From positions 2,181,045 through 2,245,044 of the forward strand of contig JAJEAN010000007.1 in assembly GCA_022822725.1 (NCBI GenBank): a stretch of 64,000 nucleotides of DNA, written 5' to 3'. The notes under the pieces were generated by a model that saw nothing but the letters and a program-made list of their open reading frames with translations, had not been told where the DNA came from and made no database searches. The stretch is from Candidatus Latescibacterota bacterium. Lineage in GTDB: Bacteria; JAAXHH01. Below, one piece after another: positions 3,165 to 55,323 of this stretch (position 1 is the stretch's first letter; the number at the start of each line of letters is the position of its first letter). Position numbers and translations under genes: made by a program.

Positions 3165-4163
3165 TCAGCCGCCGACTCCGGACTGCAGTCCCGCGTCGCG
3201 GCCGGTTTTCACGCTCCAGTCCAGCAGGCGCTGCATGTCGGTGAACCGGGTCCTGCTCGTCGGGCCTCCGAGTATGACGGCGTAGATGTCGTCGCCATCG
3301 TTGCCGACGGCCCTGAGCACAAGACAATAACCGGCTCTCCGGATATACCCGGTTTTGCTGCCTGCGCACGCCCACAGGCTTTCGGATACCGGTTCGCGGA
3401 CCAGCCGGTTGGTGGTCCGGATAGTATGGGTGCGCCTGTTCGTGCCGAAACGGTACTCCTTCGCCAGGAGGACTTCCGCCAGCAGGTCGTCCTGCAGCGC
3501 ATTCCACAGAAGGGCTATGCAGTCCACCGCGGTGGACGTATTGCCTGCATCCAATCCGGTGGGTTCGGTAAACCGCGAGTTCGCCAGCCCGAGCGAGGCC
3601 GCCGTTTCGTTCATCCGGTCCACGAAAGCCTCGGTCGTCAGGCCCGTCGCCCGGGCCAGCGCCCGGGCCGCCACGTTGTCCGAAGCGACCAGGGTGGCGT
3701 ATAGCAGGTCCCGGGCCGAGACCCGCTCCCTGTACCTGAGCTTCGTCCAGTTCGCCCGATAGACGTCCTGCCGGGTAATGCTGACCTGCTTGTCCAGGTC
3801 CGGATTCATGCCCATGAAGGTCACGGCCGTCATCAGCTTCGTAATACTCGCTACCGGGAACGGCGAGGTCGCGTTCTTCTGGTAGATCACCTCGCCCTTC
3901 TGCATGTCGACCACGAGGGCGGCCCGGGCACGTATACGGACGCCCGTGCTCCACCTGCTCGACCTGACGGGCGCCGCGTCCACTTCGGCCGGCGGTCCGG
4001 CCGGGCCAGATGCCGCGTCCACTTCGGCCGGCGCATAGATCGGACCGTCTTCCGCTGAAAGTCCATCGGACGGTCTGGCGTCCGCGGATACGGAAGCGAT
4101 CGACAGCAGCAAGGCGCAACCGACCCATGCCGCCATGGGGCGGATCGTGTAAAGGCTACTCAT
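3165..4163 (-). CDS. Serine-type D-Ala-D-Ala carboxypeptidase (low-molecular-weight PBP)
   Basis: 332-residue exported peptidase S11 enzyme that trims or cleaves peptidoglycan stem peptides in the periplasm. A signal peptide spans about residues 10-28. It is followed by a low-complexity linker with the duplicated PAEVDAA motif. All three active-site motifs are present: SITK (S-x-x-K), SDN in VASDNVAARAL, and KTG in GSKTGYI. The length is short, like PbpG/DacF without the C-terminal membrane-anchoring domain. It lies just downstream of the c-di-AMP cyclase gene but has its own promoter (4172-4201). No ribosome site precedes the ATG, and the transcript may be leaderless. Confidence 0.9.
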   Translation of the reverse strand: MSSLYTIRPMAAWVGCALLLSIASVSADARPSDGLSAEDGPIYAPAEVDAASGPAGPPAEVDAAPVRSSRWSTGVRIRARAALVVDMQKGEVIYQKNATSPFPVASITKLMTAVTFMGMNPDLDKQVSITRQDVYRANWTKLRYRERVSARDLLYATLVASDNVAARALARATGLTTEAFVDRMNETAASLGLANSRFTEPTGLDAGNTSTAVDCIALLWNALQDDLLAEVLLAKEYRFGTNRRTHTIRTTNRLVREPVSESLWACAGSKTGYIRRAGYCLVLRAVGNDGDDIYAVILGGPTSRTRFTDMQRLLDWSVKTGRDAGLQSGVGG

Positions 4164-4171
4164 AGCAAGGG

Positions 4172-4201
4172 AAAATAGGACGGGATGTAACGCTAAGTCA
4201 A
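4172..4201 (-). promoter_or_regulatory. Promoter giving a nearly leaderless carboxypeptidase mRNA
   Basis: On the minus strand TTGACT (4201-4196), 18 bases, TATTTT (4177-4172). Only eight bases separate the -10 box from the ATG at 4163, so transcription should start within a base or two of the start codon. The -35 box overlaps the end of the cyclase gene. Confidence 0.6.
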
Positions 4202-5751
4202 GGTGAATTCAGCCGGTTTGTCAGGCTGGTCTGCCGGGAAGCCGCTACCCGGTCCAGTCCGGCGGTTTCGTCTGAATCCGACTGACCGTCGCCGACGGGC
4301 CGCAGATCGATGCGGACCCTGACCTCGCGTCTTTCGATGCTGAACGAGGAGATCGTCAGGTTTTGCGGAAGGACTTTCAAGCTGCAGTCGAAAACCTGGC
4401 TTGCGGTAAGCTGGGAAAGGTCGATCGACGGCGACGTTACGATCCGTTCGATCTGGTCGAGTTCCATTTCACGGCCCGTGATCGGTACCGAGGGCGGCTC
4501 CACCGATACGTCTCGCGCCAGCTCCAGCCCTTCTGGCAGCTGGCCGGTCAGGTCATAGTCGATCATGATCCGCCGGTTCACGATACGGTCGGATCGTATG
4601 GTCAGGCTTCTCGGATCGATCGAAGTGGCTACCACGCCGAAGGGCAGCTCCACGTTCGACTCCGTGAGCGGCATGGTGTGCGTCCCGGGTTCCATGCCGT
4701 CCAGGTCTACCATAACGCGGACCTGGTCCGCCGTCAGCGTCGAAATACTCCCCTGGGGTCCCCGTGCGCGGACGTTTACCTCGCTGGTCGAATTTTCGAT
4801 CAACTCGATATTCGTAGGGATGTTCTGGAATTCGAGCGCGGCGGTTATGGCAATCTCGGACGTGGGTTCCCCGATCAGTGTGTACCAGAGCAGGAACGCC
4901 GCACCGATGGACGCCAGCTTGGCGGTAAGGTTGTTGCGATTGAACCGGTATCCCGCCCGAAGGGCGATGATTTTCTTCAACGCTTCCTGCATCGACAGTC
5001 TGCTTCGGGGGATCTCGATGGGCAGCAATGACTTTTCAAGCGTTTGCCAGAGCTTCTCCCTGTCCGCCGTGGCCGTGATGTCGCCGCCGGACGCGACGGA
5101 CACCTCGCCGCTTTCTTCGGAGACCACGACGCAGAACGTATCGCCGAGTTCCGATACGCCCAGGGCCGCCCTGTGGCGCGTGCCGTACCGGGGCGGCAGG
5201 TGTTCGCGGGTTGAAAGAGGCAGATAGGTGGCGGCTTCGACCACACGGTCCTTCTCCACGATAATCGCACCGTCGTGAATCGGCGAAGACGGTTGAAAGA
5301 CGCTGACGATCAGTTCCTGGCTCACGAGACTGTCGAGTTTCACGCCATGCTGCACGACGCCGGAGATCCCGGTCGCCCGGGGGAAGACCAGCAGGCCGCC
5401 GATACGCTTCTCCGACATCTCGAAACAGGCCTCGGTGATCTCTTTCAGAATGCGCCGGGAGATGGGACTGGACTGTAGCCTGAAAATGACCAGTGGGCTT
5501 ACCCGTTCCAGCAGCTGCCTGATTTCGGGCTGGAATACCACGATGATCAACAGGAGGGTTACGCCGAGCAGGTATTGCAGGATCTGGCTGGTCAGGAGCA
5601 GCCCGCTCCAGTTGGCGATGCTGTAGAGGATGCCCAGAATGCCGAGGCCGATCAGGATATGGTATGCCCGGGTCCCCTTCAGCCACATGTAGAGGCTGTA
5701 GATCAGGGCCGCTATGATGAAAATATCCAGCAGGTTGACCAGATCGAACAT
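4198..5751 (-). CDS. cdaA: Diadenylate cyclase CdaA fused to a YbbR/CdaR-like domain
   Basis: 517-residue membrane protein predicted to make the second messenger c-di-AMP from two ATP. Residues 1-90 hold three transmembrane helices typical of CdaA. Residues ~95-225 are the DisA_N/DAC domain with both catalytic signatures: DGA in IHDGAIIV and RHR in GTRHRAALG. After a linker (~250-275), a further transmembrane helix (~280-295, ASIGAAFLLWYTLIG) leads to an extracytoplasmic region with at least two YbbR-like beta repeats (to about residue 485). In Bacillus the YbbR protein CdaR is a separate neighbour that regulates CdaA; here enzyme and regulator form one chain. Low-complexity C-terminus. The next gene downstream is a cell-wall carboxypeptidase. 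Confidence 0.92.
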   Translation of the reverse strand: MFDLVNLLDIFIIAALIYSLYMWLKGTRAYHILIGLGILGILYSIANWSGLLLTSQILQYLLGVTLLLIIVVFQPEIRQLLERVSPLVIFRLQSSPISRRILKEITEACFEMSEKRIGGLLVFPRATGISGVVQHGVKLDSLVSQELIVSVFQPSSPIHDGAIIVEKDRVVEAATYLPLSTREHLPPRYGTRHRAALGVSELGDTFCVVVSEESGEVSVASGGDITATADREKLWQTLEKSLLPIEIPRSRLSMQEALKKIIALRAGYRFNRNNLTAKLASIGAAFLLWYTLIGEPTSEIAITAALEFQNIPTNIELIENSTSEVNVRARGPQGSISTLTADQVRVMVDLDGMEPGTHTMPLTESNVELPFGVVATSIDPRSLTIRSDRIVNRRIMIDYDLTGQLPEGLELARDVSVEPPSVPITGREMELDQIERIVTSPSIDLSQLTASQVFDCSLKVLPQNLTISSFSIERREVRVRIDLRPVGDGQSDSDETAGLDRVAASRQTSLTNRLNSP

Positions 5752-5878
5752 CGTCTCAGGATTCCTTGGGCGTGGGCTGTTATAGACCAGAAGGATGTAG
5801 AAGGTATATAATCACTATACAGAACAGAAACCGCAAGACTTTTGAAATAACCGGCGGTGGCGCGGGTTCCGGCTGCCT

Positions 5879-6697
5879 CTACACCGGGTCGTCGGGCCGG
5901 GTCAGGGGTACGCGCCGGCCGCGATTGGATGCGGGCGCCAATGGGTTGCCGCGAGACGGGGAGGCCGGATGTTCGTCCTGTGGTGCGGAGACCGGAAGAT
6001 CCTGCCGCAACTCCGCAGGCCGGGACTCCGTTTGATCGCGCGACGGCAGCGCGGGCAGGGTAAGTGCGGTGCTGAAGGCCGTTCCGCCCGATACGACGAA
6101 TTCCAATGCTTCCTCGACGGACAGGTCCACGGGTACCACGTCCCGGCGCGGCACGATTACCACGCGGCCCGCGGCGGGATTAGGCGTATTGGGCACGAAA
6201 ACGCTCACCAGATCGTCACGTGGTTCTTCACTCGGAAGGTCGCCGGCGATGAAGGCGATCATCCACGCGCCGCGGCGAGGGTACTCGACGACGACGGTCT
6301 TCCAGGTCCTGGTCTCCCCCGTCATCGTGAAGGTGTCCAGGATTTTCCGAACCGGGTGATACACCCTTCGCGCGACGGGAAGCCGCATCATGAGGTCTTC
6401 GATCCAGGTGATCACCCTCCTGCCCAATACGTTCGAGGCCACGAATCCGGCCAGGAAAATCACGATCAGCATGAGCAGGATACCCAGTCCCGGAATGCGG
6501 GTATCCAGTCCCAGCAAACCACGAATGACCGGCGCGGCGATGGAGTCCAGCCAGGTCAGCAGCCAGCTCAGCACGGCGATGGTAATGGTGAGCGGAATGA
6601 GTGCGATCAGCCCGGAGACCATCGTTCGCTTGAAACCATGGCGGATTCTGGAAAACCTGGATTGTCGCTTCGGGAAGTCATTCATACTTGAGGTCAT
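5879..6697 (-). CDS. DUF502 family membrane protein
   Basis: 272 residues. Two transmembrane helices (about residues 28-52 and 72-92) surround a GLGIL-containing segment, followed by the conserved DUF502 cytosolic domain (VYHPVRKILDTF, then VFVPNTPNPAAGRVVIVP near residue 165). The family is widespread in bacteria and plants (LIKE-COV), with no established biochemical role. The C-terminal 50 residues are proline- and arginine-rich and disordered. An alternative ATG at 6685 would shorten it by four residues. The gene is about 130 bases upstream of the cyclase gene on the same strand. Confidence 0.85.
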   Translation of the reverse strand: MTSSMNDFPKRQSRFSRIRHGFKRTMVSGLIALIPLTITIAVLSWLLTWLDSIAAPVIRGLLGLDTRIPGLGILLMLIVIFLAGFVASNVLGRRVITWIEDLMMRLPVARRVYHPVRKILDTFTMTGETRTWKTVVVEYPRRGAWMIAFIAGDLPSEEPRDDLVSVFVPNTPNPAAGRVVIVPRRDVVPVDLSVEEALEFVVSGGTAFSTALTLPALPSRDQTESRPAELRQDLPVSAPQDEHPASPSRGNPLAPASNRGRRVPLTRPDDPV

Positions 6698-52723: not shown

Positions 52724-52972
52724 ATGAAGACGACACTCAACATCCAGGACGAATTGCTGTCCCGCGCAAAGCGACACGCACAGCGGACCGGACGGCCGCT
52801 ACGCGCAGTGGTCGAAGAAGGTCTGCGACAGGTACTCTCAACAGAATCCTCCCGCGGACAATACCTTCTTCCCGATCACAGCGTAGGCGAAGCCGGTGGG
52901 AGAGATCCCCTGGAGGCGTACTCCTGGCAGGATCTTCGGGATGTCATTTACGGAAAGCCTGACAGCCAGTGA
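52724..52972 (+). CDS. vapB: VapB-type ribbon-helix-helix antitoxin
   Basis: 82 residues. The N-terminal TTLNIQDELLSRAKRHAQRTGRPLRAVVEEGLRQVL is an RHH DNA-binding domain (over residues 2-37). The C-terminal part is a toxin-neutralising tail. It should repress its own promoter and block VapC. No ribosome site is present, consistent with a leaderless mRNA. Its stop TGA overlaps the vapC GTG start. Confidence 0.88.
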   Translation: MKTTLNIQDELLSRAKRHAQRTGRPLRAVVEEGLRQVLSTESSRGQYLLPDHSVGEAGGRDPLEAYSWQDLRDVIYGKPDSQ

Positions 52973-53406
52973 TCGCTGTGGACACCAATCTGCTGGTTTA
53001 TGCGCACCGGCGCGAATCGAGGCACCATGTGGCGGCCTCTTCGCTGGTGCGCGGATTGGCGGAAGGTACCGATTCATGGGCAATTCCCTGGCCCTGCTGC
53101 TACGAGTTCCTCAGCGTGGTCACCAATCCTCGCATATGGAAGGATACTGCCACGAGTCCAGATCAGGCGTGGCGACAACTCGCCGCCTGGACAGCCTCCC
53201 CAACGGTGCGATTGATAAAAGAGACCGATGACTTTCTGGATGTGCTGGAGCGCTTCGTTCGACGTCCCCGTGTAATAGGCGGCGTGGTCCACGACGCCAG
53301 GATAGCGGCGATATGCGTAGCACACGGGGTGGAAGCGCTTCTGACGCGGGATCGCGACTTCTCGCTCTTCCCCGAACTCAAGACGCGGGACCCAATCGCT
53401 GGGTAA
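52969..53406 (+). CDS. vapC: VapC-type PIN-domain toxin ribonuclease
   Basis: 145-residue PIN nuclease. The acidic active-site residues are D in AVDTNLLVYAH, E in CYEFLSVV, D in VVHDARIAAI and D in LLTRDRDFSLF. VapC toxins cut specific tRNAs or rRNA. GTG start coupled to vapB. Gene order antitoxin-toxin is standard. Confidence 0.92.
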   Translation: MIAVDTNLLVYAHRRESRHHVAASSLVRGLAEGTDSWAIPWPCCYEFLSVVTNPRIWKDTATSPDQAWRQLAAWTASPTVRLIKETDDFLDVLERFVRRPRVIGGVVHDARIAAICVAHGVEALLTRDRDFSLFPELKTRDPIAG

Positions 53407-54586: not shown

Positions 54587-54616
54587 TTGTCAATCCGAAG
54601 GCAAAATCGATATCAT
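54587..54616 (+). promoter_or_regulatory. Promoter of the TGA-containing thioredoxin-like gene
   Basis: TTGTCA (54587-54592), 18-base spacer, TATCAT (54611-54616), giving a leader of about 50 bases before ATG 54676. The stretch 54501-54586 after ychF has no gene. Confidence 0.55.
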
Positions 54617-54675: not shown

Positions 54676-55257
54676 ATGAAAATGAGAAACCGAACCCGCT
54701 TGATCACCGCGCTGATCCTGGCCGGAGCTCTGACATGGGCTTCGCAAGCCGGCGCCCAACTCAACACCAACACCAGCTTCAACCCGGAACCGCTCAGCCT
54801 CGTGGATTTCAAGAAGGCGTTCAACGGCGATACGGGCAAGGTCCGACTCGTCGTGATGTTCTCTCCTACCTGAGGCCACTGCATAAGCGGCGCCGGGGCG
54901 GTGCAGCAAGAGATTTTGAAGAAGTTTCCTTCCGATGACCTTCGGGTCTACGTGGTCTGGCAGCGGATACTCAGGAACGATGCGGCCAATACGGCCCGGA
55001 TCGCGGCGGAGCAGGTTTTCAGCGACAAACGGGTCAGCCAGATGTGGGACCCCGCGAACGCGCTGGGATTCTGGTACAAGCAGTCGGGGGAACTGGAACA
55101 CAAGGACCCCATGGTCTGGGACGCCTATTTTCTCTACGGCAAGGATGCCGAGTGGAAGGACGCGCCTACCGGGCTGATCGACACCGGTTACACGGTGTGG
55201 AATATGAAAGACAGGCTCTTGAAATCGGTGGCGACGACGATGGAGACCGTGGACTGA
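54676..55257 (+). CDS. Predicted exported thioredoxin-like selenoprotein (in-frame TGA = Sec)
   Basis: Read as one frame the gene encodes 193 residues, with TGA (54871-54873) at codon 66. A signal peptide (TRLITALILAGALTWASQAGAQ) is followed by a beta strand VRLVVMFSPT, then [TGA]-G-H-C-I-S-G-A-G. The TGA falls exactly where a thioredoxin-fold protein has its first active-site Cys (C-x-x-C becomes U-G-H-C). The frame stays open for 127 more codons of plausible protein (FPSDDLRVYVVWQ; W-rich, ending at a normal TGA). Possible SECIS stems just after the TGA are CACTGC/GCGGTG (54877-54882/54898-54903) or CTGCA/TGCAG. Own promoter and terminator. The alternative is a pseudogene with one nonsense mutation. 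Confidence 0.72.
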
Positions 55258-55288
55258 ATTTCCCGGTAGCGCGGAAAACCAAATTGGC

Positions 55289-55323
55289 GGGGCGGTTCGG
55301 CAAGAACCGCCTCGTTTTTTTTT
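55289..55323 (+). terminator. Rho-independent terminator after the selenoprotein candidate
   Basis: 10-bp stem (55289-55298 with 55304-55313, one G-U), GGCAA loop, then nine T. It is the clearest plus-strand terminator in the window and lies 31 bases after the stop codon. Confidence 0.93.

Follow-up and report, generated by a model that had tools for sequence, protein, structure and literature searches.

A conserved in-frame UGA in a predicted exported, thioredoxin-like selenoprotein family with mercury-transport gene neighbourhoods in several relatives

Reductases of the TlpA/ResA/DsbE type (PDB 2b5x, 1lu4, 3gl3, 1st9) are exported thioredoxin-like proteins whose redox motif follows the first core strand. 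Selenocysteine (Sec) in a comparable context is described for the Rcas_1661 family thioredoxin-like (seleno)lipoprotein (NF041057, listed as DsbG-like selenoprotein), which is exported and has a UxxC motif, and for SaoT (NF040730), a thioredoxin-like selenoprotein with UxxC published together with organometallic-linked Sao proteins. Furthermore, Sec occurs near soft metals in selenoproteins related to mercury carriers, namely the UxxU metal-binding protein NF041115, the MerT/CopZ fusion NF045683, and the DF family NF049942. How selenoproteins contribute to metal detoxification is, according to a 2026 review, still to be investigated (PMC13188914).

The gene described here resembles the TlpA/ResA/DsbE-type reductases in predicted fold, motif position, and export, but its product is only 11-20% identical to them over the structural match, carries Sec in place of the first Cys, and is recognised by no Pfam thioredoxin model. 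In addition, the W-D and WDxY columns conserved in the alignment of its family were not seen in any searched model. In respect to NF041057, one Cys homologue alone touches the model, scoring 21.9 bits where the cut-off is 190, whereas domain-only sequences remain unmatched. Family members match nothing in the NCBIfam library that should hold the SaoT model. NF041115, NF045683, and NF049942 adjoin or are fused to family members but represent other domains (HMA, MerT, DF), lacking the thioredoxin-like domain of the family.

The window, i.e., the complete analysed stretch of 64,000 nucleotides (G000:C9:2181045-2245044), belongs to a genome of 3.8 Mb. The gene and its immediate surroundings within the window comprise the following features:

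54587..54616 (+), sigma-70-like promoter match TTGTCA-18-TATCAT from a consensus scan (10/12 positions), by itself no proof of function
54676..55257 (+), selenoprotein gene, 193 residues with Sec at 66 and a final TGA, based on translation, TGA retention, and selection on both sides
54676..54756 (+), predicted signal peptide (residues 1-27), probably cleaved after AGA
54775..55254 (+), predicted thioredoxin-like domain, based on the family alignment (A5), the AlphaFold2 model, and Foldseek
54871..54873 (+), Sec codon TGA (codon 66), aligned with the Cys of four homologues
54871..54882 (+), UxxC active-site motif U-G-H-C, Sec/Cys66 and Cys69 columns invariant in 31 aligned members, at the start of model helix 67-83
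54890..54904 (+), apical hairpin of a bacterial SECIS element, GCGCC-GGGGC-GGUGC, 54890-54894 pairing with 54900-54904
55286..55323 (+), intrinsic terminator, 13-pair stem and T-tail

The original prediction had described a frame that opens at the ATG at 54676, meets a TGA at codon 66, continues for 127 sense codons, and ends at a regular stop (TGA, 55255-55257); coordinates and translation were reproduced. It had also placed this TGA at the first residue of a CxxC-type motif directly after FSPT (FSPT-U-G-H-C), which agrees with the Cys found there in homologues and with the position of the motif in the structure model, and had proposed a flanking promoter and strong terminator, both of which were recovered, the terminator match spanning 55286-55316. 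Promoter-grade matches number two in the region compared with a mean of 0.3 in shuffles. The signal peptide was called by eye, from a basic start, a hydrophobic stretch, and AxA. An Rfam scan over the selenoprotein gene returned no RNA family. Its neighbours, named by eye, are genes for a YchF-like GTPase and a dihydrolipoamide acyltransferase. Elsewhere in the window, 52724-53406 reads by eye as a VapB/VapC-type pair of antitoxin and PIN-domain protein.

The conservation of the in-frame TGA exceeds chance. Thirty-seven genes, 12 from same-genus genomes and 25 from further relatives, have it at codon 66, distributed over 35 genomes. A protein search across 96 genomes detected the gene in 12 of 12 same-genus genomes, with one internal TGA in each, and further members were added by a profile search and by searches in the phyla of G187, G340, and G172. 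Counted by kinship labels (the window's lineage, the G088/G358 lineage, and the three separately searched phyla), TGA-bearing relatives span at least five phyla. A tblastn search of plasmids with the sequence of a relative and a search of viral contigs gave no match. At L039 (G013:C102:1364-1567), the family domain is represented by its C-terminal part alone, the motif-bearing N-terminal half being absent by decay or assembly.

The ratio pN/pS was 0.214 upstream and likewise 0.214 downstream of the TGA, so selection acts equally on both parts of the frame. In the 12 same-genus copies, codons 66-77 contain no synonymous difference at all and are thereby the least variable of all 12-codon windows, compared with a gene-wide mean of 0.143 synonymous differences per codon and sequence pair. 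These values bear on the possibility that the TGA arose by nonsense mutation or from a miscalled sense codon, the remainder of the gene being in decay. Such an origin would be in line with standard annotation, which reads the TGA as a stop, and with the relatives being nearly all draft assemblies, most of them from metagenomes; the retention of the TGA in 37 genes, including those of 12 same-genus genomes, the equal selection on both sides, and the lack of synonymous change just after the TGA nevertheless make it extremely improbable. As the independent assemblies all have the TGA, a read error does not explain it.

Homologues carry Sec or Cys at site 66. Cys was found in four of them (the second copy of G187, G384, G462, and G463), each being an uninterrupted single ORF through the site. 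The one clear exception is the homologue of G631 with SPTSASS, i.e., SxxS with Ser at both active-site residues, in a genome that is 100% complete and has no selB over the cut-off. A weak match in G455 (L073), with neither Cys nor Sec in its motif, was excluded from the counts. The Cys homologues also speak against two separate products, namely an exported peptide of 65 residues that stops at the TGA plus an internally started protein, e.g., from GTG 54901, which indeed opens a 118-residue ORF. A split between the first strand and the helix would be expected, judged by the structure model, to break the thioredoxin-like fold, and the conservation directly past the TGA is of the SECIS type. We therefore consider a two-product arrangement very improbable and read the locus as one continuous frame.

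The bacterial SECIS (bSECIS) model demands a loop of 3-9 nt, an upper stem of 4-16 bp, a G in the first two loop positions, a spacing of 16-37 nt, and an energy of <= -7.5 kcal/mol (PMC13188914). The hairpin at 54890-54904 agrees with this model, having a 5 bp stem, the loop GGGGC, a spacing of 21 nt, and -12.0 kcal/mol. It starts 16 nt past the UGA, its apical loop lying 21 nt past the UGA. Stems had been predicted 3-5 bases past the TGA; a hairpin is indeed present, but the conserved one is located further downstream. Two hairpin classes can be distinguished within the family. In the first, with 12 members, all five pairs are kept, the third being G-U, A-U, or G-C; as two-sided changes are missing, this represents conservation rather than strong covariation. 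The second (11 members) lies a few bases nearer to the UGA and retains all seven pairs with nine compensatory cells, a level not reached in 500 shuffles. Compared with synonymous recodings, 26 Sec genes folded better on average (mean z -1.27) and four Cys genes did not (+0.28), values that do not constitute a formal test because the sequences are related. The window's own hairpin was not significantly better than its synonymous recodings (p 0.17).

The genome carrying the window holds the complete set of selA, selB, selD, and a tRNA-Sec gene (selC), as the prediction of a selenoprotein implies. SelB scores 344.7 bits in all, with the tRNA-Sec (anticodon TCA) immediately downstream; selA reaches 487 bits and selD 263 bits. 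The next matches to the tRNA-Sec model in this genome turned out to be tRNA-Ser in those checked. The selD match (L045, G000:C9:294246-295187) sits in an open frame of 816 residues, far longer than SelD alone and possibly a fusion. Separately, an adjacent second SelA-like and SelD-like pair (L042 and L046, G000:C6:55753-59093) was observed with weaker scores of 155 and 103 bits, under the curated cut-offs. Among the genomes checked, 28 of 33 have selB over the cut-off. It is missing over the cut-off in three genomes with a Sec gene (G088, G473, and G493), perhaps due to incomplete assemblies; G358, a congener of G088, has selB over the cut-off.

This full sel set argues against a genome-wide reassignment of TGA to another amino acid such as Trp. 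The frame would stay open with TGA read as any residue, but both the preceding gene and the selenoprotein gene itself terminate in TGA, and homologues carry Cys instead of Trp at site 66, leaving reassignment with a negligible probability. Sec is thus the preferred reading of codon 66, and we regard its insertion at the UGA as highly likely.

The AlphaFold2 model, calculated from the window sequence and close public relatives, shows strands and helices alternating in its core, the UxxC motif being placed at the start of helix 67-83. Its mean pLDDT of 58.6 is modest, the core being of moderate confidence. Foldseek matched the model to TlpA, ResA, DsbE, and Sco proteins with a probability of 1.00, the family profile matched thioredoxins weakly among PDB sequences, and the fold is consequently predicted to be thioredoxin-like of the TlpA/ResA type. 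In combination with the predicted signal peptide and the nucleophile position of Sec in the UxxC motif, this supports the exported selenocysteine oxidoreductase that had been proposed.

The family had not been recognised in the original prediction, and Pfam and NCBIfam did not recognise it either. For the window protein, no Pfam model matched and the NCBIfam scan gave only a weak PDI-domain match far under the cut-off. Across 31 family members, none matched NCBIfam at E<=0.01 and one matched Pfam, weakly, with Thioredoxin_4. The models of Haft and Tolstoy 2025 (mSystems) to which the 2026 review refers should be part of the scanned NCBIfam library. The 2026 inventory of 119 prokaryotic selenoprotein families has no entry identifiable as the family of the window protein, inventory families defined by cd models being judged from their table entries. 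The text of the deep-Sep paper contains neither thioredoxin nor MerT nor mercury. As Pfam, NCBIfam, and the 2026 inventory provide no identity, the NCBI protein database being outside the search, we call the family unnamed.

Extension of the analysis toward the gene neighbourhoods of relatives, which goes beyond the original prediction, revealed a link to mercury genes. Mercury-type genes (MerT, MerP, MerR, MerC, or "DF") lie beside or are fused to the domain in 12 of 30 relatives' loci, two of these being weak (G473 with MerR only, G486 with a short MerT remnant), compared with none of 22 control loci; this difference is indicative only, because the controls total less sequence (105 kb vs. 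359 kb) and come for the most part from the window's genus. The mercury-linked loci occur in four phyla. In G088 and G358, the gene comes after MerT and a MerP-like protein whose frame contains two TGAs (GMVUGAUP), i.e., two predicted selenocysteines. In G389, G493, and G491 (L106, L110, and L112), MerT, HMA, and the Sec thioredoxin-like domain are joined in one ORF, an architecture not contained in the selenoprotein inventory; the fusion ORFs of G389 and G493 also include, between the joined domains, a stretch that appears lipocalin-like by eye. In G536-G539, MerR, MerT(-HMA), and DF genes are located upstream of the selenoprotein gene. The second copy of G493 (L114, G493:C56) directly follows an ORF in which a DF-type thioredoxin-like domain is linked to MerC, MerR being found further upstream, and in G473 the gene is preceded by MerR.

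The G358 cluster (L100, G358:C233:8000-20278, ~3500-6620) and likewise that of G088 (L099) read, in this order, ArsR-like regulator, MerT-like, MerT, MerP-like with GMVUGAUP, and thioredoxin-like selenoprotein. A glutaredoxin-like ORF with SSPGUSSC was observed in G358 upstream of the selenoprotein, between MerT-like and MerT. This metal locus of G358/G088 hence hosts up to three predicted selenoproteins.

Taking these data together, we very probably deal with a genuine selenoprotein, exported and thioredoxin-like, which would act as a thiol/selenol oxidoreductase outside the cytoplasm, with a family use that may concern Hg(II) or thiophilic metals. SelB with Sec-tRNA-Sec would decode the UGA ahead of the SECIS hairpin as selenocysteine, and translation would continue to the normal stop. 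The UxxC motif of a TlpA/ResA-type domain would place the selenol at the nucleophile position, from where the Sec66 selenolate could attack a disulphide or a soft/thiophilic metal target, to be resolved by Cys69. Given the predicted signal peptide, the probable site of action is outside the cytoplasm. A redox role of the window protein appears likely. Since relatives in four phyla are tied to mercury-transport genes, a likely use in the family would be to handle Hg(II) or comparable thiophilic metals, or to repair the damage they cause, and for a metal role of the family the balance tips slightly to the positive side.

For the window's genus itself, the gene may instead encode a general periplasmic disulphide or sulfenic-acid reductase without metal role, the mercury link having arisen in relatives only. 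We assign this reading a little short of an even chance. A search for MerT was negative both for the window's genome and for three genomes of the same genus, many relatives lack a mercury gene in the stretch around the selenoprotein gene, and the Foldseek matches are TlpA/ResA/DsbE-type reductases. On the other hand, mercury genes recur in four phyla both as neighbours and in multi-domain fusions, and Foldseek places Sco-type copper proteins high in its ranking as well. Moreover, the window gene groups in the tree with G012, adjacent to the clade with the mercury-linked G088/G358 members, its grouping with these members having 94/89 support. As no MerT is detectable there, a mercury role in the window's genus is unproven, and a metal role by analogy with relatives can be suggested only tentatively.

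Returning to the selenol oxidoreductase, the family as a whole could form a selenium-based, mostly extracytoplasmic mercury module. In this speculative model, a selenol relay would deliver Hg(II) to MerT/MerP-like carriers, accept it from them, or repair mercurated partners, in some lineages paired with the two-Sec MerP-like protein. Selenium binds mercury with strong affinity. If the model is true, bacteria pairing the relay with the two-Sec protein would use selenium on purpose against mercury.

The findings add a selenoprotein family that is widespread, with members in five or more phyla of largely uncultured bacteria, without a model in the searched family libraries and with members that standard annotation would truncate at the UGA. 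Its repeated clustering and fusion with mercury-transport genes leads to the testable idea that selenol chemistry is used by bacteria to manage mercury.
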